Positions 27,014 to 52,620 of a stretch of DNA of 64,000 nucleotides are shown piece after piece; within the stretch, counting starts at the first letter, position 1; each line of letters opens with the position of its first letter. Under the pieces are notes generated by a model. The model saw only the letters and a program-made list of their open reading frames with translations, ran no database searches and was not told the DNA's origin. The stretch spans positions 2,250,001 through 2,314,000 of the forward strand of contig NZ_CP017305.1 in assembly GCF_001747405.1 (NCBI RefSeq), written 5' to 3'. Origin of the DNA: Chlorobaculum limnaeum. Lineage in GTDB: Bacteria; Bacteroidota; Chlorobiia; Chlorobiales; Chlorobiaceae. A program made the position numbers and the translations under genes.

Positions 27014-27199
27014 CACTCCTTGAATTTTCGAGTGAAATGCCGCTGCTGTCAGGCGATTGCCGGTGCCGCGATTGGGATTTCTCGGTTTTTGATGGAGGGA
27101 TTGGCCCGATGCTAAAGAACTTTAGCATATTGAAAAGCAAGTTGGATGCAAGTATTGAGAACATAGACTGAAAGTAATAGACAATTAAAAAAAAGTCAA

Positions 27200-28915
27200 A
27201 TTTACCTATCCAATATAAAACTCTGGAATTTTAGAAAATTCGGTTCAGATAGCGAATTTGATTTAGATCATCCGAATTTAAATTTAAACCTAAAAAAAGG
27301 TTTGAATGTAATTATTGGTGAAAATGATTCGGGAAAAACAGCCATTATTGATGCTGTAAAACTTGTACTTAAGACGCATAGTTATGAATATATAAGAGTA
27401 GAAGATAAAGACTTTTACGATAGAGCTGAACGTTTCAGAATAGAATTGACTTTTGAGGGGCTGACCCCCGATGAAGGCAAAAACTTTACAGAATGGCTGG
27501 GTTGGACAGGGGCAGGTGAAAATGTAAAACCATTTTTAAAATTGAATTATGATGTAAAACGTAAAATAGATAAGATTTTGCCAAGTGATGTAAAAGCTGG
27601 AGTTGATGAAGACGGTTATTTGCTTACGGCTGAAGCTAAGGAGTATCTGAAAGTAACATATTTAAAGCCTTTACGTGATGCCGAAAACGAGCTGATTGCA
27701 AAACGCAATTCTAGGTTGTCTCAAATTCTTTTGGGGGATGAGGCGTTTAAAGGTAAAGAAAAAGATAATGATTTGGTGCAAATCTTTTCAGATTTAAAAG
27801 GAAAGTTGGAGAAATTTTTTAACGAAAATGATGAGGATGGACACCCTAAAGTAGGTAAAAAAATTAAAGATAAGATTGATGGTTACATAAAAACCTTTTA
27901 CGGAAAAGATTGTGAAACAGAATTTGAAGCGTCGGGAAACGACATCAAAAGCATTCTTGAAAAACTAACGTTGTATTTGAAAGACGAACCGAATCCTGGC
28001 TTAGGAACGTTGAATCGTTTATTTATGGCTGCCGAATTGCTTCACTTAAGTAAATCAAATTGGAGTGGTTTGCGTTTGGGTTTAGTTGAAGAATTGGAAG
28101 CACATTTACACCCACAATCACAAATGCAAGTGATTGAAGCGCTTCAAAAACTTGATAAAATTCAACTCATTCTTACGACACATAGCCCGAATTTAGCGTC
28201 TAAACTCAATCTTGAAAACCTAATTATATGTAATAATGCTAATGCTTTTCCTATGGGCGAAGCGTATACCAAATTAGAGAAAGATAATTACAAGTTTTTA
28301 GAAAAGTTCTTGGATACTACAAAGGCAAATTTGTTTTTTGCCAAAGGTGTGATTTTGGTGGAAGGTTGGGCCGAAGAAATTCTAATTCCGAGCATTGCAA
28401 AAGCAATAGGAATCAATTTGACAGAAAAAGGTGTTTCAGTTGTAAATATTGGCCATACAGGTTTTGATCATTACTCAAAGATTTACTTACGCAAAGAAGA
28501 GCCTCATATGACAATCCCTGTTGCGGTAATCACAGATTCAGACATTAGAGAATATGAAAAGAACGGAGATAATTACATCAAAAAAGATGATCAGACAGTT
28601 AAGCAGGAAACAGTACGTAAAATAGGAGAGATTGACGGTAAAGCTGCACAAAATGTCAAATACTTTCCTGCGTCGAATTGGACTTTAGAATATTCATTAT
28701 TTAAGTCAACGAGATTGAGTATAGTGTTTCAAAACGCAGCAAAAGCCGTTCATACACGAACAGATTGGGATGCTGATTTTGAGAAGTCACTTGCAAAAAA
28801 GCTTATCAACAAAGGGTTAAAAAAGACCGAAATTGCTTATCATATTGCAAACGCAATTGATGAAGATTTGAAAAAAAGAAGAACCGACTATATCAATTTT
28901 AGGGGATGCTGCTGA
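27200..28915 (+). CDS. gajA: OLD-family ATP-dependent endonuclease (GajA-like), damaged ends
   Basis: An ABC-type ATPase with a C-terminal TOPRIM nuclease domain, as in Gabija GajA. Visible are Walker A IIGENDSGKTAIIDA, the signature-like GLRLGLVEELEAHLHPQS with downstream LILTTHSPNL, and TOPRIM motifs GVILVEGWAEE and AVITDSD. The normal N-terminal strand (LSNIKLWNFRKFGS) lies upstream of the first usual start codon, a TTG at 27302. No ATG or GTG exists in this frame, so 27200 (ATT) is only a proposed start. Near 28906 the frame shifts, and the expected tail (DAADAVNYLVNAIKYATGD) continues in another frame to 28964. Very AT-rich; followed by a UvrD-like gene. Confidence 0.75.
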   Translation: MYLSNIKLWNFRKFGSDSEFDLDHPNLNLNLKKGLNVIIGENDSGKTAIIDAVKLVLKTHSYEYIRVEDKDFYDRAERFRIELTFEGLTPDEGKNFTEWLGWTGAGENVKPFLKLNYDVKRKIDKILPSDVKAGVDEDGYLLTAEAKEYLKVTYLKPLRDAENELIAKRNSRLSQILLGDEAFKGKEKDNDLVQIFSDLKGKLEKFFNENDEDGHPKVGKKIKDKIDGYIKTFYGKDCETEFEASGNDIKSILEKLTLYLKDEPNPGLGTLNRLFMAAELLHLSKSNWSGLRLGLVEELEAHLHPQSQMQVIEALQKLDKIQLILTTHSPNLASKLNLENLIICNNANAFPMGEAYTKLEKDNYKFLEKFLDTTKANLFFAKGVILVEGWAEEILIPSIAKAIGINLTEKGVSVVNIGHTGFDHYSKIYLRKEEPHMTIPVAVITDSDIREYEKNGDNYIKKDDQTVKQETVRKIGEIDGKAAQNVKYFPASNWTLEYSLFKSTRLSIVFQNAAKAVHTRTDWDADFEKSLAKKLINKGLKKTEIAYHIANAIDEDLKKRRTDYINFRGCC

Positions 28916-28935
28916 CGCAGTTAATTACCTTGTAA

Positions 28936-30981
28936 ATGCGATTAAATATGCCACAGGAGATTAAAATAACAAATGAAGAAATTCAATATGCAGAGCAATT
29001 GCTTTTGCCTATTGGTAAGACGTTTGATGCAGAGCGAAGAGATTTTATTCGGAATTTCAATACAATAGATTTACAAGCTGTTCCAGGGGGTGGAAAAACA
29101 ACAGCTTTACTTGCAAAGTTGCTGATTTTAGAACGTAAACTCCCATTTGGCACCGGTTCAGGTATTTTGGTTTTATCGCACACCAATGCAGCCATTGATG
29201 AGATAAAAGAGAAAATTCAAGCGTATTGCCCGAGACTATTTTCATATCCAAATTTTATTGGAACAATACAGAGTTTTGTTGACATTTTTTTAGCTATTCC
29301 GTTTTATATTTCAAAGTATAAGAAAAAACCAATACGGATAGATAATGAGATTTACGACGAAAAGATAAAAGCTTGTGTTGACAAAATTTGGTTACATAGA
29401 TTTAACTTAAGTAATGATACTAATAAGAAAGTTGCTCATATCAAAAATAACAATGAGGGGTTGTTTTATGACGTCAGATTTCAGTTTTCAAATGGAATTA
29501 GGTTAGTTAAAAAGTTAAACGGTGATGTTCTGGAAATCAAAAAACCACGAGGAAATGCCCGAAATTATTGTGATTATTCACAGCAGGAAAAACAGGAAGT
29601 GTGTAGATGGTTTCTAGAATTTAAAAAAACAATATTAAAATCAGGTATTTTACACTTTGATGATGCTTATTTTTTAGCTGATGTTTATTTGAATAAAATA
29701 CCCGGGATAAAAACTATTTTGCAAAAACGCTTCGCTTTTGTTTTTGTAGATGAAATGCAGGATATGGACACGCATCAGTACAATTTGCTGGAAAACATTT
29801 TTTATGATGAGGGAAACAGTGTTTCAAAAATTCAAAGAATTGGTGATAAAAATCAAGCAATCTATAATTCAGTAAAAGCAACAGATATTTGGCAAGACAG
29901 ACCAGAAATTTTAAGACTTAACGGAAGTCAGCGATTAAGTAAACCAATCGCAGATATAGTGAAAAAATTTGCCTTGTACAACGATGATACATTTGATATT
30001 GTCGGACGAAATGAATGTACCATAAAACCGCATATTTTGGTTTTTGAAAATGACACAATTGAAAAAATCATTCCCCTTTTTGCTCAAATTGTAAGAAAAA
30101 ATAATTTAGCCAATTCTGAAAAGCCGATCAAAGTTGTTTGCTGGAATACAGAGTGGAGTGACGATGCTGATCTCCAAGATACCACGAAACTGCGTTTAGA
30201 AGACTATTACAAAGGCTTCAAAAAAGAAAAAGGAAAACCAAAGCAAGATTACGATAACCTGAAAAGTTATTTGTTGTACTACGAGAAAAAGCAAACCTTA
30301 GAATCTTTGCGTAAGAATATATTGAACGCTTTCCTTAAAATTTTGCGTTTGGAAAATATCAATACAACAGACGACAGATCTTACACAAAGAAAAAGTTGA
30401 TTGACTTTATTTACAACACAGACGTTCAGAAGTATGATGAATTGAATTTGAATCTTTACAAGTGGTCAATCGGAATAACTCAAGAAAAAACTAACGAAGT
30501 TTGGAGCAGTATAAAAGCATATACACCTACTCTGCTTGCAATTTTTAATAAAACCATTTCAGAAAGTTTAGATTTTATCAATAATGCCAGCAGGGATATG
30601 CGGGTCGAAAAAACCGAAAATTTAGCATTAACAAATCATTACATAGAGGACGGACTTAAAATTGAGATTACAAGCGTTCATGCAGTAAAAGGGCAAACGC
30701 ATTGTGCGACATTATATTTGGAATCATTTTATAAAAAAGGATATGGGAACTATGAATCTGAGCGACTACGAAATCAGTTTGTTGGAGCACAAACGGTAAC
30801 AGAAACATTGGCTACTGTCAAAAATAGTCATGACTTAATAAAGCAATCAACGAAAATGGCTTACGTTGGTTTCTCTCGCCCAACAGATTTGCTTTGTATT
30901 GCAGTACATAAGGAAAGATTCGAAAAATTACTGAGTGATATAAATAGAGACGAGTGGGAAATAATAGAAGTTAAAAAATGA
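28936..30981 (+). CDS. gajB: UvrD/PcrA-like helicase (GajB-like)
   Basis: A 681-residue superfamily 1 helicase-like protein. Walker A is AVPGGGKTT (residues 48-56), motif Ia-like VLSHTNAAIDEI, Walker B FVFVDEMQDMD, motif III-like RIGDKNQAIYN, and late motifs SVHAVKGQTH and KMAYVGFSRP. The pairing with an OLD nuclease just upstream is the Gabija anti-phage arrangement, in which GajB senses nucleotide or DNA state and works with GajA to cut phage DNA. It is longer than the prototype GajB (~490 residues). An alternative ATG lies at 28948. The start overlaps the predicted unshifted end of gajA. Confidence 0.8.
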   Translation: MRLNMPQEIKITNEEIQYAEQLLLPIGKTFDAERRDFIRNFNTIDLQAVPGGGKTTALLAKLLILERKLPFGTGSGILVLSHTNAAIDEIKEKIQAYCPRLFSYPNFIGTIQSFVDIFLAIPFYISKYKKKPIRIDNEIYDEKIKACVDKIWLHRFNLSNDTNKKVAHIKNNNEGLFYDVRFQFSNGIRLVKKLNGDVLEIKKPRGNARNYCDYSQQEKQEVCRWFLEFKKTILKSGILHFDDAYFLADVYLNKIPGIKTILQKRFAFVFVDEMQDMDTHQYNLLENIFYDEGNSVSKIQRIGDKNQAIYNSVKATDIWQDRPEILRLNGSQRLSKPIADIVKKFALYNDDTFDIVGRNECTIKPHILVFENDTIEKIIPLFAQIVRKNNLANSEKPIKVVCWNTEWSDDADLQDTTKLRLEDYYKGFKKEKGKPKQDYDNLKSYLLYYEKKQTLESLRKNILNAFLKILRLENINTTDDRSYTKKKLIDFIYNTDVQKYDELNLNLYKWSIGITQEKTNEVWSSIKAYTPTLLAIFNKTISESLDFINNASRDMRVEKTENLALTNHYIEDGLKIEITSVHAVKGQTHCATLYLESFYKKGYGNYESERLRNQFVGAQTVTETLATVKNSHDLIKQSTKMAYVGFSRPTDLLCIAVHKERFEKLLSDINRDEWEIIEVKK

Positions 30982-44397: not shown

Positions 44398-44440
44398 CTT
44401 GTATAACGAACATTCTCACGCTAAAAAAACTTATTTTTTA

Positions 44441-44571
44441 TAACGGTCGGGGCTATGCGACGCTGGGGAAATCGAAGCTACTTTCTTATCAACATGCACA
44501 AAGTTATAAAAAGATGTACATTTGACGTAACCACTTAAACCCCAGTGGCGTATGAGCCCTTGTTATGCACC
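44441..44571 (-). other. attC-like site A (end of cassette 2)
   Basis: A ~131-bp imperfect palindrome: GGGGCTATGCGACGCTGGGG pairs with CCCCAGTGGCGTATGAGCCC across a ~70-nt centre. On the minus strand it begins GGTGCATAAC and ends with a CGTTATA core. The stop codon (TAA) of the preceding gene lies inside the GGTGCATAAC box, as in integron cassettes. That box is the exact inverse of GTTATGCACC at the front of the same cassette (48527-48536). Confidence 0.7.
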
Positions 44572-45234
44572 GTTTTTCTTTTTTCCATTTATAATATCAC
44601 TCAATTTATCTTTATAATCACTCAATAAACTATTAACGTACTTCATTGAGTCAAATAGTTCCTGATACTTGTCATATTGTGCTTGTATATCCTGTGGAGT
44701 CTTTCTTTTGTTCTCTTCTAATTCTAAAGCTTCATTATACCATTTTCTAAACTTTGCCTGATATTCTGTTAGATGAGGTCTTAATCCTTCGTTAAGAATG
44801 TCAGTTAAAAGTTTTATTAAATCTTTTGATTCATTATTTTCTAAGAGCATTACGCCTGTAAGTTTCTTTAACTCGTCTCTTGTTATTTGAAATAATGAAT
44901 ACCAAGAATTGTAAACTTCTACAATTACATCATTGTTCTCAATCGGGAGAGCTGCTTTTCTAGTAATCATCTCTATATATATTCTATGAGCAATTTCAAT
45001 ATTTTGATAATTACGGTTTATTGCATATTCAACTTCAGCTCCTCCAATTTTGTATTTAAGTTTTATCGAAACCACCTCATTGTGAACATTGTTCGATTTA
45101 ATATAGCGTTTTATTAAAAATCGAATAAGGAAGAATAACGCAATTCCAATTAACAAAATCCAAATATTCAGAATGAGAGAAAATGTTCCCTCACACAAAT
45201 TGAATTTAAAATCTATAATATTAATTTCATTCAT
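44563..45234 (-). CDS. Single-pass membrane protein, candidate effector of TIR operon
   Basis: A 223-residue protein with one strong N-terminal transmembrane segment (ILNIWILLIGIALFFLIRFLIKRYI, about 22-47), then a soluble helical domain with a C-terminal coiled-coil-like stretch (LELEENKRKTPQDIQAQYDKYQELFDSMKYV). I recognise no family. It overlaps the TIR gene upstream by 8 bp, so it is co-translated with it, and it is last in the four-gene operon. Its place suggests a membrane-acting effector triggered by a TIR signal; this is inference. The stop codon lies in attC-like site A. Confidence 0.7.
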   Translation of the reverse strand: MNEINIIDFKFNLCEGTFSLILNIWILLIGIALFFLIRFLIKRYIKSNNVHNEVVSIKLKYKIGGAEVEYAINRNYQNIEIAHRIYIEMITRKAALPIENNDVIVEVYNSWYSLFQITRDELKKLTGVMLLENNESKDLIKLLTDILNEGLRPHLTEYQAKFRKWYNEALELEENKRKTPQDIQAQYDKYQELFDSMKYVNSLLSDYKDKLSDIINGKKKNGA

Positions 45235-45769
45235 ACCAACGGTCTCCTGTTCTATTATCTACAAATGAAGAAAAAGAATTATCTGGAATAACTTTATCCC
45301 TATTCAAAAATGCTTCATGAATCCAACTCTGAACAATATGTGGATTTGTGTTCCAATTATATAGTTTTGCAAATCCTTTTTCCCAAATTTTATAAAGTCT
45401 TGGTGGAATTGTGTAGGGATTAAATTTATTGTCAGATGTAATAGGATAACTTGGCAAAAAGATACCTAACAGTCCTGAACGTGGATTTAATCTTGTGTCA
45501 CGAATGCATGAACCAATTTCCCAATCAACATGTTTTCTCTGCCATGTTTGAGTTCCAATAAGGACTACTGTTACAGTTGAATCTCTTAAGTATTCATCTC
45601 TAATCTTTTGACGTATTGTTTCAGCATTCAGATTGGAATCAATTTCGCCAATTTGAACAGATTTTGAAACCATTATATCATAATGATTTGCAAAAAGCCC
45701 TTCAAATAAATTCCTATAATGTTGGTCATTAGCGTGATGATAGCTAACAAATACTTTGTGACGTTGCAT
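45227..45769 (-). CDS. TIR-like (MTH538/DUF1863) protein, ThsB-like
   Basis: A 180-residue protein with the DUF1863 TIR-like fold used by Thoeris ThsB: KVFVSYHHANDQHYRNLFEGLF at the start, VTVVLIGTQTWQRKHVDWEIGSCI in the centre with the conserved Glu E84, and GLLGIFLPSYP. ThsB proteins sense phage and make a cyclic ADP-ribose-type signal from NAD+. No ThsA (SIR2/SLOG or macro-domain) is nearby; instead a membrane protein follows. AT-rich, unlike the core genome. Confidence 0.85.
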   Translation of the reverse strand: MQRHKVFVSYHHANDQHYRNLFEGLFANHYDIMVSKSVQIGEIDSNLNAETIRQKIRDEYLRDSTVTVVLIGTQTWQRKHVDWEIGSCIRDTRLNPRSGLLGIFLPSYPITSDNKFNPYTIPPRLYKIWEKGFAKLYNWNTNPHIVQSWIHEAFLNRDKVIPDNSFSSFVDNRTGDRWYE

Positions 45770-45773
45770 AAAC

Positions 45774-46299
45774 TTATGATTTACTTATATTTATATTCAG
45801 AAAACTTGGAATTGGTAAATTGTCCCTGTCCAATATTTTAGCTAAAGGGAGCAATAAATCTTCATACCTATTCATATCTTCCAGACTATTATTAAATCGG
45901 TCAACCCCTTTTAACGATTTAAGAAAAGAAAAAAAATCATTTCTAGTTCGAATAATATTATCAATCCTTAAATAGTCTGGTAAATTTGCTTCGATAATAC
46001 TTTTATGCCTTAATGCAAATATTTTCACACTATCAAAAGCATAAGCATAACCTAATTCAAACGGCACCCATTTTGAATTAAGCGAATTATCTGAAGCAAT
46101 ACAAATCATAAAATCAGAACCTTGTATTCCCTTTTTTATAGCTGCAACAACTTTTTGAGGATCTTTTTTTCCATCAACTGATTGCAAATTCATATCGTTT
46201 TTATCAAGAAAAACTTCAATCTTATGTAAATCCAAGAAGTTAGCAATAACTTCTGCGTACTCAATGTCATTATTTTGGTAACTTATAAAAAACTTTCAT
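45774..46299 (-). pseudogene. TIR domain protein, frameshifted at its N-terminus (T6 run)
   Basis: From the ATG at 46299 the reading MKVF continues into TIR sequence only if one T is removed from the six-T run at 46287-46292. Then KVFISYQNNDIEYAEVIANF joins the long open frame LDLHKIEVFLDKND...SDFMICIASDNSLNSKWVPFELGYAYAF, with the catalytic Glu in WVPFELGYA. The corrected protein is ~174 residues. The shift could be a sequencing error, phase variation or inactivation. It lies 4 bp before the ThsB-like gene. Confidence 0.75.
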
Positions 46300-46350
46300 T
46301 TGTATGGAAATAATTAATTTTCAATAATATAAATAGGCAACTCTTGCAGA

Positions 46351-48327
46351 TTATTTCCAGTTTCGGAAAGATTTATTAAACCACCTAATCGTGAAGGCAT
46401 AAAAATAAATCGTGGAGCTTTTTCGAATTACATTATTTTCACCAACTCTCATTTTTGTTTCAATATCCTTTATTGTGCCTAAGTTTTCATGTTCTGGTTT
46501 GCTGAAATTCAACAATTTTTCAATTTCATTTTCTAAATCATTCAATTTTTCTTCAATATTTTTTTCTGATTTATTGATTGGCTTTTGCAATAAAACAGTC
46601 TCCCAGAACTCGTTTGAAAAAACTTCATCTCCTAAATAATCCTTACCAAATAAATAGTCAATTAATTCATTTTCGTTAATTAAATTTGACGTGCTTTCAG
46701 GCATATAATTCATTTGTTGTCTGAACATTGATTGATAATACTCCTTATTCTCTTTACTAAGTTTGCCTGTTTTTACTTGCAGTTTTAATTCAGAAAAGTG
46801 TTCCTTAATATTTGTTTCAATTTGCATCAAAGCATCTTGATCTTTTAGTACCTCGCTTACCTGCTCTTCGTTCAATCCTTGTTGCAATAACATATATGGC
46901 AACATTTTCTTGAAAATCGTTTTAATATATTCTTCTATTGCCAAAGCACTATCAGTCTCTGTACTCCATAAAATTCTGTTCATTAGCCTTAAAGACTTAA
47001 CTGATTCATATCCCATTCCACCTGGAGAACAATTAGATTGTATTCGAGCAATTCGTTTTGCAATTTTATCACTTATTGCAAGTGGTTTTATTTCTTTTAC
47101 ACAGTCTGTAACCGGATTATATAGCAATAATTTTCTTGGTTTTTTGTTATTTCTTTTATCAATATTTTGATGCAGTAAGTATGAATAAACTAACAATTCA
47201 CCACGAGTCCACCATGAATCTAAATAATCATCAGAACCATAAATCCATAATTCATCGCAGTGCATTATATAATCATGGTCAATAATTGTAAGCAATTGCC
47301 AAATACGTTGTTTGGTATTTAATTCTGTGGCATAAACTAAACTTCCATCTTCAAGGTATTTTGCAGTCTTAGATTCGCTGTTGTGATAAATACCTTCTTT
47401 TAAATCCAAGGATAATTGTTTTACAGATTTTTTATAGTTTGCAGGAAGATGTAAAAACTCAGCACAATCCATTATGTAGGATTTGTATTTATTATAATCA
47501 TTTCCAAGTATCCTTTGTATTGCCTTTTGAAAATCATTAGTATCAGTGTCAAATGCATTATTTGAAATTTCTCTTAATTTATTCAATATATGTTCTGGAA
47601 CAAAGGATTTCAGATGGTCAAAAGATTTTTTTACAAGTCGAATAGATTTCTGATATTGATATTTGGTTTTGAAACTTATAAAAATTGAAGTCTCTTGATT
47701 TTTATTATTATATACATGGTCTATTGATTCTTCCATGTATTTGTAAAAACCATTTATAGTGTCTTTATCACCTGATAAAAACTTTTTTATGTCGGGTTTA
47801 TTTGTCTTTCTTGGCTCTAAAGCTATTTGATTTTGTTGTTTGTTTTCTGAGTTCAGAATAAGTTTTTTTTCTAACCAATCAATAATTTGTTGATTGGTAA
47901 AAATATTTGTCTTATAATCGGGATAACCTCCATTATCTGTACCATAAAAATTAATAGGTAAATAGTTTCTACTAACAACTAGAATGTGTTCCAAAGATTT
48001 TGGATGTTCATTTGCAATATCAAAATTATTTATTTCATTGTTTTCACCTTCTCTTGTTGCATCAATTATCACAATATCATCAGATAAACAAGCCTCAAAA
48101 AAATCCATTTGTCCAATCTCTTGAACAAATCGGTTATATATTTTAAGTAGTAAACCTACTTTAGATAGTTGTTCTATTTCTTTTTCAAATGCATAATCAA
48201 CAGAATGGTTTTTGTATTCATTAACTGGTAATGAATACTTACGCATTAGTAAAATGATTATTTCGTTAATAAGCTCAATGCTTGTTTCGCTCTTTATAGG
48301 AAATATTGCAATACTATATTCTTTCAT
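46351..48327 (-). CDS. Large protein with TIR-like segments, first gene of the TIR operon
   Basis: A 658-residue protein of no family I can name. The N-terminal ~170 residues form an alpha/beta domain (ACLSDDIVIIDATREGENNE, SLEHILVVSRNYLPI). The middle has SIFISFKTKYQYQKSIRLVKK and HCDELWIYGSDDYLDSWWTRGELLVYSYL, which resemble the first strand and the acidic catalytic region of TIR domains. The C-terminal third is helical and charged. It is very AT-rich. It is followed by the frameshifted TIR, the ThsB-like TIR and a membrane protein with gaps of 51 bp or less, all on the minus strand inside one cassette. Confidence 0.6.
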   Translation of the reverse strand: MKEYSIAIFPIKSETSIELINEIIILLMRKYSLPVNEYKNHSVDYAFEKEIEQLSKVGLLLKIYNRFVQEIGQMDFFEACLSDDIVIIDATREGENNEINNFDIANEHPKSLEHILVVSRNYLPINFYGTDNGGYPDYKTNIFTNQQIIDWLEKKLILNSENKQQNQIALEPRKTNKPDIKKFLSGDKDTINGFYKYMEESIDHVYNNKNQETSIFISFKTKYQYQKSIRLVKKSFDHLKSFVPEHILNKLREISNNAFDTDTNDFQKAIQRILGNDYNKYKSYIMDCAEFLHLPANYKKSVKQLSLDLKEGIYHNSESKTAKYLEDGSLVYATELNTKQRIWQLLTIIDHDYIMHCDELWIYGSDDYLDSWWTRGELLVYSYLLHQNIDKRNNKKPRKLLLYNPVTDCVKEIKPLAISDKIAKRIARIQSNCSPGGMGYESVKSLRLMNRILWSTETDSALAIEEYIKTIFKKMLPYMLLQQGLNEEQVSEVLKDQDALMQIETNIKEHFSELKLQVKTGKLSKENKEYYQSMFRQQMNYMPESTSNLINENELIDYLFGKDYLGDEVFSNEFWETVLLQKPINKSEKNIEEKLNDLENEIEKLLNFSKPEHENLGTIKDIETKMRVGENNVIRKSSTIYFYAFTIRWFNKSFRNWK

Positions 48328-48526
48328 TTTTATTGGATTCTATTTTTTAAAACATATCGTTAGAATTCAAATAGCTTCTCGCGGTGTCTTTTATTAAAAT
48401 GTTGACTAACGTCAAAAATACCATATGTTATATATTTAAATATCAATAATTTATCGCATCGCACTTCTCTGTCTAAAATCCATACGTTAGCTTAGGAAAT
48501 TATCGGAAGTTTTCCGAGTGGGGAAT

Positions 48527-48662
48527 GGTGCATAACGTTGGCGGTATGGCCAGTAAGGGATTGCGGAACTACGTTCCTATCAACCGAGATGAAAGATTGA
48601 TGCGGGTGATGAACTTCGCATACCCCTGAAGCCCTTATTGGCTATACCGCGTGTTGCATGCA
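48527..48662 (-). other. attC-like site B (junction of cassettes 1 and 2)
   Basis: A 136-bp imperfect palindrome: GCGGTATGGCCAGTAAGGG pairs with CCCTTATTGGCTATACCGC. The outer box on one side (GTTGCATGCA, plus strand 48653-48662) is the exact inverse of TGCATGCAAC at 49879-49888, the front of cassette 1. The other box (GGTGCATAAC, 48527-48536) is the front of cassette 2 and inverse to 44562-44571. Additional CGTTAG/CTAACG pairs at 48358 and 48406 may be older sites. The site with its AT-rich leader fills 48328-48670. Confidence 0.7.
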
Positions 48663-48670
48663 GTTGTTTT

Positions 48671-49405
48671 TTACAATTTATTTAGTTTATTTAACTTATA
48701 ATCACAAGGTTTATTCTTAAATATTAAATCCGTAAACTCATCCAATAATTTATTGACAATTTCATTTGTAAAACTCATCTCATTTTTAGGCTTCTTTATT
48801 AGATTCAAATCAATATAATTACCTAGAAAATCACTAACAATTTCTTTTACAGAAGTGTCAACATAATAGGTTAATGCCATCTTTAATATATCTCCAATAT
48901 CTTTTAGTTTTAACTTCGGTTCATTATTGACAATTTCATAAAGTAGTAAAGCTGATTCATTTTGAATCTTCTTTATTAATTCAATAGATTTTGAATCAAA
49001 TATTGACTCCAAATCATTATTATTTTGATTTTCTACGATTAATAATAAAAGCCATGTTGGTGAATTATCGTCAAAATCCGATATTCTGATTAAGGCACAA
49101 TCACTGTAATTCTTTGTTATCCCATTTTGGAGCAGTCTTCTCATTGAAGGCCATGTGTCCAAAATAATACTAATATCAAAATCTCCATTTTTTACCGATG
49201 AAAAGACTTCTTCAAGATTAGGCCAACAAGTTGCTAAATAATAAGAGTGCTCATCCTTAGGAATACTATACCAAACCATATATTTTGTAAACACAGTTTG
49301 TTCAAATTCAAAATATGAATCTGTTTTACGATAATATAAAGATTCCTCAGCTTTATACAGCCTTTTCATAGCAATTCCAACATTTTCGTCAAGAAATTTT
49401 CTCAT
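48671..49405 (-). CDS. Hypothetical protein in cassette 1
   Basis: A 244-residue acidic, AT-rich gene product with no signal peptide or membrane segment and no domain I recognise. Visible are YYRKTDSYFEFEQTVFTKYMVWYSI, an Asp/Asn-rich middle, and a Lys/Asn-rich C-terminus. It ends a few bases before attC-like site B. It is 12 bp downstream of the other cassette gene, so they form a two-gene unit. By company it may be a defence or addiction pair, which is only an inference. Confidence 0.6.
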   Translation of the reverse strand: MRKFLDENVGIAMKRLYKAEESLYYRKTDSYFEFEQTVFTKYMVWYSIPKDEHSYYLATCWPNLEEVFSSVKNGDFDISIILDTWPSMRRLLQNGITKNYSDCALIRISDFDDNSPTWLLLLIVENQNNNDLESIFDSKSIELIKKIQNESALLLYEIVNNEPKLKLKDIGDILKMALTYYVDTSVKEIVSDFLGNYIDLNLIKKPKNEMSFTNEIVNKLLDEFTDLIFKNKPCDYKLNKLNKL

Positions 49406-49417
49406 ATTTTATCATAA

Positions 49418-49843
49418 TTAATTTTCTGAGCTTAAAGTCGCAATTGTATAAACAACATGTTCCATCATTTTGCGTACTTCACTTTCTGTTGAATTTGTTT
49501 CTCTTGCTAATATTACTGCAAGTTCAGTCATATCTTGTAGAAATTCATCTCTAACAGGGTCTGGTAATTTCCGATTTATGAGGCGTGATGCTTCTTGTAC
49601 ACCATTTGAATAACCTTTTGTTCTAACGTACTTATCAATAGATTCATGTTTTTCTGCTAAGTCTCCAAATACCAACTTTGTAAAAGGAGATTCAAATTCA
49701 CTAGGATTAAACATTAACTCAGTAAATTTCTTTAAAATGACATCAGTTTTTGAAGTATTGTCTTTAATGTTTATTAAAATCCATAATGGGATACTCACGA
49801 CTGCGAGCCATTCATTGTCCTGAAATTTTTCTTTATAATTCAT
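49418..49843 (-). CDS. Hypothetical protein in cassette 1 (TerB-like helical?)
   Basis: A 141-residue mostly helical protein (EWLAVVSIPLWILINIKDNTSKTDVILKKFTELM...; LQDMTELAVILARETNSTESEVRKMMEHVVYTIATL). The sequence pattern loosely resembles small TerB-like helical proteins but is not a firm match. It is the first gene of cassette 1, about 40 bp from the front boundary, and a 12-bp gap separates it from the next gene. Confidence 0.55.
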   Translation of the reverse strand: MNYKEKFQDNEWLAVVSIPLWILINIKDNTSKTDVILKKFTELMFNPSEFESPFTKLVFGDLAEKHESIDKYVRTKGYSNGVQEASRLINRKLPDPVRDEFLQDMTELAVILARETNSTESEVRKMMEHVVYTIATLSSEN

Positions 49844-49878
49844 ATCTGTTTATTTTGTGTGCTAGTGTTTTTTACAAT

Positions 49879-49988
49879 TGCATGCAACTTGTTTATAAGC
49901 GCTACTCTATAGCGCCTTACATGCCATATTGGATGAATAAGCGCTACAAAGTATCGTGTTATTGTCCGGCACACTCTTGGTGCAGTTA
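49879..49988 (-). other. attI-like region between recombinase and first cassette
   Basis: Lies between the recombinase stop and cassette 1. It contains the cassette-front core GTTGCATGCA (minus strand, 49888-49879), an AGCGCTA/TAGCGC hairpin, and two direct copies of ATAAGCGCTAC at 49895 and 49937. Direct repeats beside a core site recall integron attI sites. The function is inferred from position and pattern. Confidence 0.5.
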
Positions 49989-51170
49989 TTATAAATCATC
50001 GAATGGGCTTTTAATCTGCTGTAAACTTTTTTTGCTGACATGGGTATAGATTTCGGTGGTTTTGCTGCTTTTGTGTCCGAGAAGTTCCTGAATATACCTG
50101 AGATCAGTTCCCGACTCCAGCAGATGGGTGGCATTACTGTGACGTAACCAGTGCAGCGTTACCGGTTTGGTGATATGAGCTTTTTTCAACGCATGGTCCA
50201 ATACCTGTTCAAGACTTCTTGCGCTGTATTGGGTATCGGGGAATTGCCCTTCGAAAAGCCATTGCTTTGGCTTGCAGGCCGTGTAGTACTCCCGCAGCAT
50301 ACCAATCAGCTTGTTTGACATTGGCACCACCCTGTCTTTGTGGCCCTTGGCATCTTATATGATGAGAAGTCCACGTTTTGAATCTACATGCTCGAATCTG
50401 AGGTTCAACAGTTCACTACGTCTGAGTCCACAGGCGTAGATCAGGCTGAGCATCGTTCGGTGTTTCAGATTTGTGGGTGCTTCCAGAATCTCTTTTACCT
50501 CCTCTTTGCTCAGCACATTCGGCAGTTTGTGCTGTGAACGAGGACGTTGCAGGTTTTCGGGCGAGAGCGTTGCGTCATGGATAACTCTGAAAAAAAGCTT
50601 TGCCTCATTAACTACCTGATTTTGATATGCAAAACTCAGTCCATTGGGCAGGATGTATTCGTTTACAAAACGCACCATATCCTCGCTGGTTATCTCGTTG
50701 GCTTGTTTCGGACTGACGAATCTCAGGAATACTTCGAGAACCTGCAGGTAGGTTTTGACCGTAGAATCGCTATAGCGCTTGTGCAGAAGCCACTGCCTGA
50801 ACGTATGAAGCTCTTTCGACAGCGTGGTCTGTATTATAGTCTTTTGCTGAGCAGATGTGGTTCTGTTGCATCGGGTTGCCGGGTGCTTTTCTCTGAAAGC
50901 AGAATAATCTACCCAGGCTTTGCCCTTGAACTGCTTGAGCATCAGATCGATCACCTCGTCAGATTCAGGAATATGCCAACGGTTACAACTGCTACTCCAG
51001 CGTGCGCCCTTTAGCTGCTTCACCTCGGCAGTCAGGGCTTCATCGTATGGAAACTCAAGCGCCACCCGCTTTTCACCCCTGTGCTCGAAGGGCGTAATCC
51101 GTATGATGGTGCTTGCGTGAGGCATTTGCTGTGGGGAAAAGGTGAAACTACCTTGTACTTCAGCCAACAC
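49989..51170 (-). pseudogene. Xer-like tyrosine recombinase with in-frame TAA
   Basis: One continuous frame of 393 codons interrupted by a single TAA (50355-50357), between RGLLII and [13 protein letters not shown], where Lys would fit. The layout is an unusual N-terminal domain of ~90 residues (VALEFPYDEALTAEVKQLKGARWSSSCNRWHIP), a SAM-like core-binding domain (TFRQWLLHKRYSDSTVKTYLQVLEVFLRFV), and a catalytic domain with [35 protein letters not shown] and TEIYTHV (nucleophile Tyr). It lacks the extra IntI-specific patch. Without readthrough the catalytic HxxR and Tyr are lost. A homologous 5' fragment lies at 26847. Confidence 0.85.
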
Positions 51171-51278
51171 ATTTATATGAATGTAAAAATATTGTACCGT
51201 ATAGCAAACAAATGGGTGAAACGAATGTGTGAAATTTACCGCAGGAATTTCATTTTTTCCCCACCCCCCAGAAACGCA

Positions 51279-51309
51279 AAAAACCCCAACCAGTCTTCAC
51301 CAGTCGGGG
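51279..51309 (-). terminator. Terminator of the ParE-type toxin operon
   Basis: On the minus strand, CCCC-rich and GGGG-rich arms around a 12-nt loop are followed by TTTTTTGCG. The stem has one mismatch. It shares its sequence with the terminators at 52586 and 44351. Confidence 0.7.
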
Positions 51310-52457: not shown

Positions 52458-52585
52458 TCCACCCTTTCCTTTCGATTGTTCGTAGTGCGCAGCGAACATC
52501 CTGTGAATTCCGAAACAAGCTGCCCCCTGAAATCTAATCAACATTCGCGCTCCGTCAAAAACGCCGGAAAGTCCCCCTGGAAACG

Positions 52586-52620
52586 CAAAAAACCCCAACC
52601 AGTCTGCACCAGTTGGGGTT
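52586..52620 (-). terminator. Terminator-like palindrome downstream of aroA
   Basis: AACCCCAAC/GTTGGGGTT, a perfect 9-bp stem, is followed on the minus strand by a T-run (TTTTTTGCG). It is nearly identical to the sequence around 51279-51309, 1.3 kb away. Confidence 0.75.

Follow-up and report, generated by a model that had tools for sequence, protein, structure and literature searches.

A predicted attI site beside an integron-type tyrosine recombinase without the IntI insertion in Chlorobaculum limnaeum

Results

Organization of the locus

The window analyzed in this work, a stretch of 64,000 nucleotides, comprises bases 2250001-2314000 of the single-contig genome of Chlorobaculum limnaeum (2,797,276 bases). 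On its minus strand, a split recombinase gene (51170-49989) is followed by attI, cassette 1, attC1, cassette 2, attC2 and other genes (Table 1). The stop codon of the recombinase frame is at 49989-49991 and the start of the first cassette ORF at 49843; the spacer of roughly 100 bp between the recombinase and cassette 1 ORFs holds the direct repeats. On the other side of the recombinase gene, a 46-nt repeat, terminator-like by eye, is found in two copies with 91% identity (window 51264-51309 and 52573-52618). The 1.3-kb segment between these copies contains ORFs resembling a toxin-antitoxin pair and is absent from the sister genome G015.

An earlier note on this DNA had proposed an attI site with two direct repeats, a hairpin and a core, and our analyses found all three elements. 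ATAAGCGCTAC is present in two exact copies, with starts at 49895 and 49937, and does not recur elsewhere in the window; the hairpin GGCGCTA-TAGAG-TAGCGC lies on the minus strand at 49899-49916, and GTTGCATGCA is present at 49888-49879. For the 110-bp stretch, a first-order Markov model gave exact direct repeats of at least 11 nt in 59 of 20000 samples. Such repeats were also seen in 9 of 1278 overlapping 110-bp segments of real sequence, the attI stretch itself included, and the repeat taken alone is hence only mildly unusual. Furthermore, TTGTAAAAAACA occurs twice in direct orientation, once at each end of cassette 1 (49866-49877 and 48665-48676, minus strand), and both copies lie within the inverted GTTGCATGCA ends.

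Both cassettes carry an R'' that pairs with the cassette's own start, ACTGCATGCAAC with GTTGCATGCAAT in cassette 1 and ACGGTGCATAAC with GTTATGCACCAT in cassette 2. Searches of NCBIfam, Pfam and PADLOC gave no family match at E≤0.001 for the two ORFs of cassette 1. In cassette 2, two ORFs are TIR/ThsB-like (window 45227-46286, minus strand; Pfam ThsB_TIR and PADLOC ThsB models), and the other two had no family match at E≤0.001. Cassette 2, about 4.1 kb long, is a candidate defence cassette.

In G015, the locus has the same neighbouring genes. Its match to the window runs through the recombinase and attI up to position 49866, is lost for most of the array and resumes around the array end GTTATAAAAAATAAG, continuing past it. 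Between the window genome and G015, cassette content hence differs between fixed ends, i.e., the same attI and the same array end.

Table 1. Features of the recombinase, attI and cassette array in the window
Feature	Position	Strand	Basis or remark
Tyrosine recombinase gene, integron-type without IntI insertion; one in-frame TAA at 50355-50357	49989..51170	-	NCBIfam scores; open homologues
attI: two palindrome-like units, two direct repeats, core, crossover G49888^T49887	49886..49956	-	sequence comparison
Direct repeat 1, GTAGCGCTTAT on minus strand	49937..49947	-	
Direct repeat 2, GTAGCGCTTAT on minus strand; 42 bp from repeat 1	49895..49905	-	
Palindrome GGCGCTA-N5-TAGCGC	49899..49916	-	exact twin CGCTA-N5-TAGCG in G012 (locus L010)
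Degenerate twin of palindrome, upstream	49942-49956	-	
attI core TATAAACAAG^TTG	49885..49897	-	like core in 50/58 homologous loci
Cassette 1, two ORFs (49418-49843, 48671-49405)	48536..49887	-	R'' pairs with own start
attC1	48525..48664	-	covariance model R1, 75.3 bits, E 5.7e-17
Cassette 2, four ORFs (46351-48327, 45774-46235, 45227-45769, 44563-45234)	44444..48535	-	R'' pairs with own start
attC2, last attC of the array	44433..44573	-	covariance model R1, 80.2 bits, E 3.4e-18
Array end GTTATAAAAAATAAG, common to G015	44430..44444	-	

The recombinase and its family

The window recombinase scored 208.5 bits with the NCBIfam model NF040815 (cut-off 220) and 194.1 bits with the IntI model TIGR02249 (cut-off 265), the latter match falling into two stretches (profile 2-178 and 240-315). 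TIGR02249 scores of the homologues in G012 (201.5 bits) and L025 (207.5 bits) likewise lay under the cut-off. Scores with XerD (184.6 bits, cut-off 329.6) and XerC (175.9 bits, cut-off 335.15) placed the window recombinase with neither. The frame of the G012 homologue is open over the matched region; that of G015 is open over the profile match and has two stops further N-terminal, before an internal ATG. Because the recombinase reading frame in the window is interrupted, this copy of the integron probably is a fixed, inactive remnant.

A K-x-KDR-like and an LRHS-like motif are separated by 58-63 residues in all 54 family members and by exactly 100 in 22 IntIs; two more of the 24 IntIs had no match to a motif, and the partial or broken L028, G069, G027 and G319 were left out of the recombinase protein set. 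By this spacing, the IntI-specific additional domain with its I2 helix is absent from all 54 members. When the IntI4 structure 2a3v was compared with the G012 protein, two stretches aligned and chain residues 184-246 were unmatched. An AlphaFold2 model of the recombinase reached a pLDDT of 65.9 and a pTM of 0.33; with a pLDDT this weak, it was used neither for fold searches nor for conclusions.

In a careful tree of 66 rows, from which further near-copies and long branches had been left out, the family formed one clade (support 98/91) and IntI another (100/100), with the family outside the IntI clade. In the best tree IntI grouped with XerA (97/68), and AU tests gave p=0.335 for IntI with the family and p=0.384 for the family with XerA. 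A sister relationship of the family to IntI and one to archaeal XerA are thus both compatible with the data. That the family recombinase lies, by these comparisons, outside IntI is a point that the earlier note had missed.

At E≤1e-100, the family recombinase was found in 46 of the 394 genomes of the phylum as defined here; nine of these carriers belong to the window's own taxonomic family (86 genomes). TIGR02249 matched at E≤1e-65 in 106 of the 394 genomes, in 105 of them over the cut-off. Both kinds were present in 11 of the 46 carriers and 35 had no IntI match at E≤1e-65. For the family and for IntI alike, at most the best five candidates per genome were scored, so that absence counts are not proof. 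Two named Chlorobaculum records (L032 3318-3416 and L033 8001-8102) match only the first 33-34 recombinase residues, which probably reflects decay.

attI across homologous loci

We collected the DNA 3' of 58 homologous recombinases, some of which share a genome (two each in G083, G085, G218 and G124). Left out were the archaeal matches L030, L031 and L034, the 33-34-residue remnants L032 and L033, and G298, a copy of L025. We drew up a core pattern (like ATAAACAAGTT) after inspection of the flanks and found it no more than 175 nt from the recombinase end in 50 of the 58 loci, versus 542 of 11600 shuffled flanks. Because the loci for column counts were picked by this pattern, part of the conservation inside the core is by construction. 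In eight closely related Chlorobiaceae loci, identity dropped at the crossover G^TT, from 0.887 in the preceding 60 nt (taken together with GTT) to 0.40 in the following 60 nt. The metagenomic contigs of G012 (L010/L021) and of L022 both stop right after AAGTTA, as expected if cassettes vary in the population. Past the crossover, an A was found at +10 in 47 of 48 first cassettes, with several neighbouring arm positions variable.

The identification of the site as attI thus held up, with a core that recurs 3' of homologous recombinases, unrelated sequence from G^TT on and a different array in the sister genome. Correct as well was its placement 3' of the recombinase in a same-direction layout, which is also seen in true IntI integrons of Chlorobiaceae. 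The check put forward in the note, conservation of the repeats near homologous recombinases, had a mixed outcome, with a common core (50 of 58 loci) and only partly conserved direct repeats. We compared the latter in 51 loci, i.e., the 50 with core pattern and G312, placed by eye. A 10-mer beside the crossover had a direct copy with at most two mismatches in only 22 of the 51 loci and an inverted copy in 23, whereas cross-species pairs gave 17% direct and 16% inverted, and shuffled sequences 9% and 11%. Despite their exactness in the window, direct repeats were consequently rejected as a universal defining feature. Repeats often match better within a locus than between loci, though not universally. 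Perfect 6-bp palindromes (all six paired, gap 3-8) were seen near the crossover in 13 of 51 loci and upstream in 8 of 51 (5.4% and 4.6% after shuffling), so that a fixed palindrome was likewise rejected and retained only as a frequent layout. The repeats of G012 and L022, read by eye, form a pair of palindromes, each with a 5-nt gap, at a distance of 42-43 bp.

Directly past the recombinase stop, we found TAnnTTTG, which we take to be a Bacteroidota-type -7 element, in 17 of the 39 non-Chlorobiaceae loci (147 of 3900 shuffled) and in one of 12 Chlorobiaceae loci. A cassette promoter past the recombinase end is hence plausible only for loci outside Chlorobiaceae.

attC sites

A fold-based scan yielded 91 attC calls in 36 of the 51 loci, 74 of them with an inner length of 116-119 nt. 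Nine of the 15 loci without a call have less than 400 nt beyond attI; five of the remaining six contain matches to the covariance model described below, and the sixth, G207, was outside that search. Position +10 was mismatched in all 91 calls, with the A on the cassette-start side in 90. R'' matched its own cassette start at six or more of eight positions in 66 of 91 calls, compared with 2.5% of cross pairs. In an alignment of 34 sites, both-side changes were found in 18 of 18 stem pairs and 90.7% of cells were paired, versus at most 42.7% when slid; selection therefore acts on the folded strand.

The covariance model R1 was built from training set A2 of 34 sites, none from the window and two from G015 at the same chromosomal locus. 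In the window it recovered attC2 and attC1 with the E-values listed in Table 1, and the next match had an E of 0.24. In 17 of 18 other family loci, two of which (L133 and L138) contain training sites, R1 found 56 sites, each 3' of the recombinase and on its strand. Among the positive loci are members without the attI core pattern (G177, G166, G323 and G124b); the 18th locus, L120, with 700 nt of 3' sequence, had no site. R1 gave no match in 160,843 bases around 14 IntI genes, where three loci hold less than 400 nt 3' of intI. Two further R1 matches lie elsewhere in the Chlorobaculum limnaeum genome (C1:2193037-2193176 and C1:644851-644966), away from its sole family recombinase match. On contig C170 of G012, an attC match (27024-27165) with the orientation of the recombinase (28167-29327) is located on its 5' side, unlike in the 17 R1-positive loci.

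We compared the stems of 66 family attCs with 12 attCs of IntI arrays, picked by eye. One-sided 1-nt bulges on the L'' arm numbered 17 in the 12 IntI-array sites and five in the 66 family sites; the latter had 14 such bulges on the other arm and 85 1x1 mismatches. Extrahelical L''-arm bases, a hallmark of the canonical attC, accordingly did not characterize the 66 family sites. Symmetric stem events only were seen in 34 of the 66 family attCs, whereas at least one asymmetric event occurred in 32 of 66 family and 12 of 12 IntI-array sites. The contrast between mismatches and extrahelical bases hence appears as a tendency and not as a clean separation. The window attCs themselves are mixed as regards the canonical build, because the attC1 stem has 1x1 mismatches only and that of attC2 bulges as well as an internal loop. 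Sixty-six of 88 counted 1x1 mismatches were an A opposite C on the top strand, which becomes T.G on the bottom strand. The bottom strand was the more stable one in 60 of 66 family attCs (mean -3.5 kcal/mol) and in 8 of 12 IntI-array sites (mean -0.9), although the two energy differences are not strictly alike because IntI sites had 7-nt arms and family sites 12-nt arms plus own start. The central spacer of 40 of the 66 family attCs is asymmetric, with a single nucleotide on one arm and five on the other.

Discussion

Our comparisons make it highly probable that the stretch 49886-49956 on the minus strand is the attI of a chromosomal integron with entry at G49888^T49887, at which a non-IntI recombinase would join attI and folded attC. 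Comparison among loci demonstrates the predicted attI core and crossover, the attC hairpins, the own-start rule and the differing arrays between the same ends. The locus thus shows these parts of an integron platform: an attI with G^TT by the recombinase, attC hairpins in one orientation, the own-start match and variable cassettes. On such sequence tests the family behaves as an integron; it falls outside IntI, and its attCs appear to be of distinct build.

We propose that a tyrosine recombinase related to IntI but outside its clade recombines double-stranded attI with the folded attC bottom strand, and would do so without the insertion that holds the I2 helix of IntI. Strand choice might proceed via A.C mismatches that turn into G.T wobbles on the bottom strand, not via extrahelical bases, and also via the central spacer of 1 nt versus 5 nt. 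The two palindrome-like units about 42 bp apart are putative accessory binding sites for the recombinase. The window copy with its interrupted frame would probably be a fixed remnant of such a system. The stem anatomy leads us to infer that recombinases without the insertion go with attCs poor in extrahelical bases, and that the recombining strand is marked by the mismatches together with the asymmetric spacer. Previous work showed that in IntI systems the first extrahelical base sets strand choice, and that without such bases an unpaired central spacer can still impose it (part of PMC2727003).

The locus shares several features with known chromosomal integrons. In the IntI-towards-attI integrons of Treponema and Chlorobiaceae, attI also lies 3' of the integrase gene, the crossover is likewise G^TT and cassettes are bounded by attC; Treponema is a published case of this same-direction layout (part of PMC3607928). 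In contrast to these systems, the family recombinase has no additional domain and its attI core is TATAAACAAG^TT, compared with, e.g., CAGTCTAAACATTG^TT or CAATCTAAATATTG^TT in Chlorobiaceae IntI loci. Family attCs are of near-constant length and mostly show A.C mismatches where IntI arrays show extrahelical bases. Like IntI (TIGR02249), the family has a tyrosine recombinase core, a similar C-terminal end of SPxD type and linked attI and attC sites. It differs from IntI in its score (194-208 bits in three members against the cut-off of 265), in its motif distance (58-63 versus 100 residues) and in forming a separate clade. Archaeal-type XerA (NF040815), in turn, is the best NCBIfam match of three members and, by motif distance, the family resembles it in having no insertion in the catalytic domain. 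Unlike XerA, the window protein is extended by about 120 residues ahead of the SAM-like domain and heads a cassette array.

The kinship with XerA might suggest that the gene encodes an XerA-like dimer-resolution or phage recombinase, with the repeats forming a dif-like site unrelated to cassettes. The window recombinase indeed has NF040815 XerA_Arch as its best NCBIfam model, and palindrome-N5-palindrome units presumably resemble dif. However, the genome encodes a separate XerD (381.1 bits, over cut-off) and an XerC-like protein (315.4 bits, below the cut-off of 335.15), and attC matches lie 3' of the recombinase and on its strand in 17 of 18 loci, the exception being L120 with its 700 nt of 3' sequence. 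We hence regard this explanation as extremely improbable. The array could also belong to a canonical IntI acting in trans, with the adjoining Xer-like recombinase as a bystander, since true IntI genes occur in 15 of the 86 genomes of the window's taxonomic family and an IntI could act in trans on these attCs in the 11 of 46 genomes with both kinds of recombinase. Yet the search of the window genome gave no IntI match at E≤1e-50, and among the best five candidates per genome, 35 of the 46 carriers have none at E≤1e-65. Furthermore, the core adjoins the family recombinase in 50 of 58 loci, R1 had no match in the 14 IntI loci (three with less than 400 nt 3' of intI) and family attC stems differ from the 12 IntI-array sites, which makes an IntI in trans very unlikely.

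Somewhat less remote, but still unlikely, is a secondary loss of the additional domain by a true IntI, which would make the locus an ordinary integron with a degenerate integrase. In its favour, IntI, the family and archaeal XerA lie close together in the tree, which gives no firm order of the three. On the other hand, the IntI clade excludes the family (100/100) and the family clade excludes IntI (98/91). The domain loss would also have to predate the whole family, in which members with open frames are common. An integron run by a non-IntI recombinase hence remains our preferred reading.

Members of an 'integron-like' tyrosine recombinase subgroup in which the insertion is not fully conserved have been described (part of PMC8138268). 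The same source deems the insertion essential for integron function, and its accessible part describes no attI or attC for members without it. An IntI survey took the additional domain as a criterion (part of PMC2426708). IntegronFinder 2 reported complete integrons in Chlorobi, Ignavibacteriae and one Salinibacter strain (part of PMC9024848). Arrays like the one described here would probably be scored as orphan attC clusters, or missed, in any search with the IntI domain as a requirement. Among the open-licence PMC papers listed in our literature searches (no preprints), none dealt with integrons without I2, as judged by title and opening of the abstract.

In IntI systems, the I2 helix docks extrahelical attC bases, and the available part of PMC7790495 states that I2 gave integrases single-strand recombination and is known from no other protein. 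A hairpin-using integrase without I2 is hence unexpected, because deletion of I2 abolishes IntI1 function (PMC7790495 in part, citing Messier and Roy 2001). The same part of this work points out that direct proof of I2 causality is missing and that intermediates are lacking. With the family, i.e., natural recombinases without the insertion and matching hairpin sites, the I2 question is open to direct test. Whether a recombinase lineage that never had I2 runs complete integrons across Bacteroidota and Chlorobiota, with a strand code of mismatches and spacer, we consider about evenly balanced. If true, the family would represent one of two things, a pre-I2 stage of integron evolution that has survived or an independent second route to the recombination of folded hairpins. 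An enzyme family without a part thought essential for integrons could thus help to explain how integrons originated.
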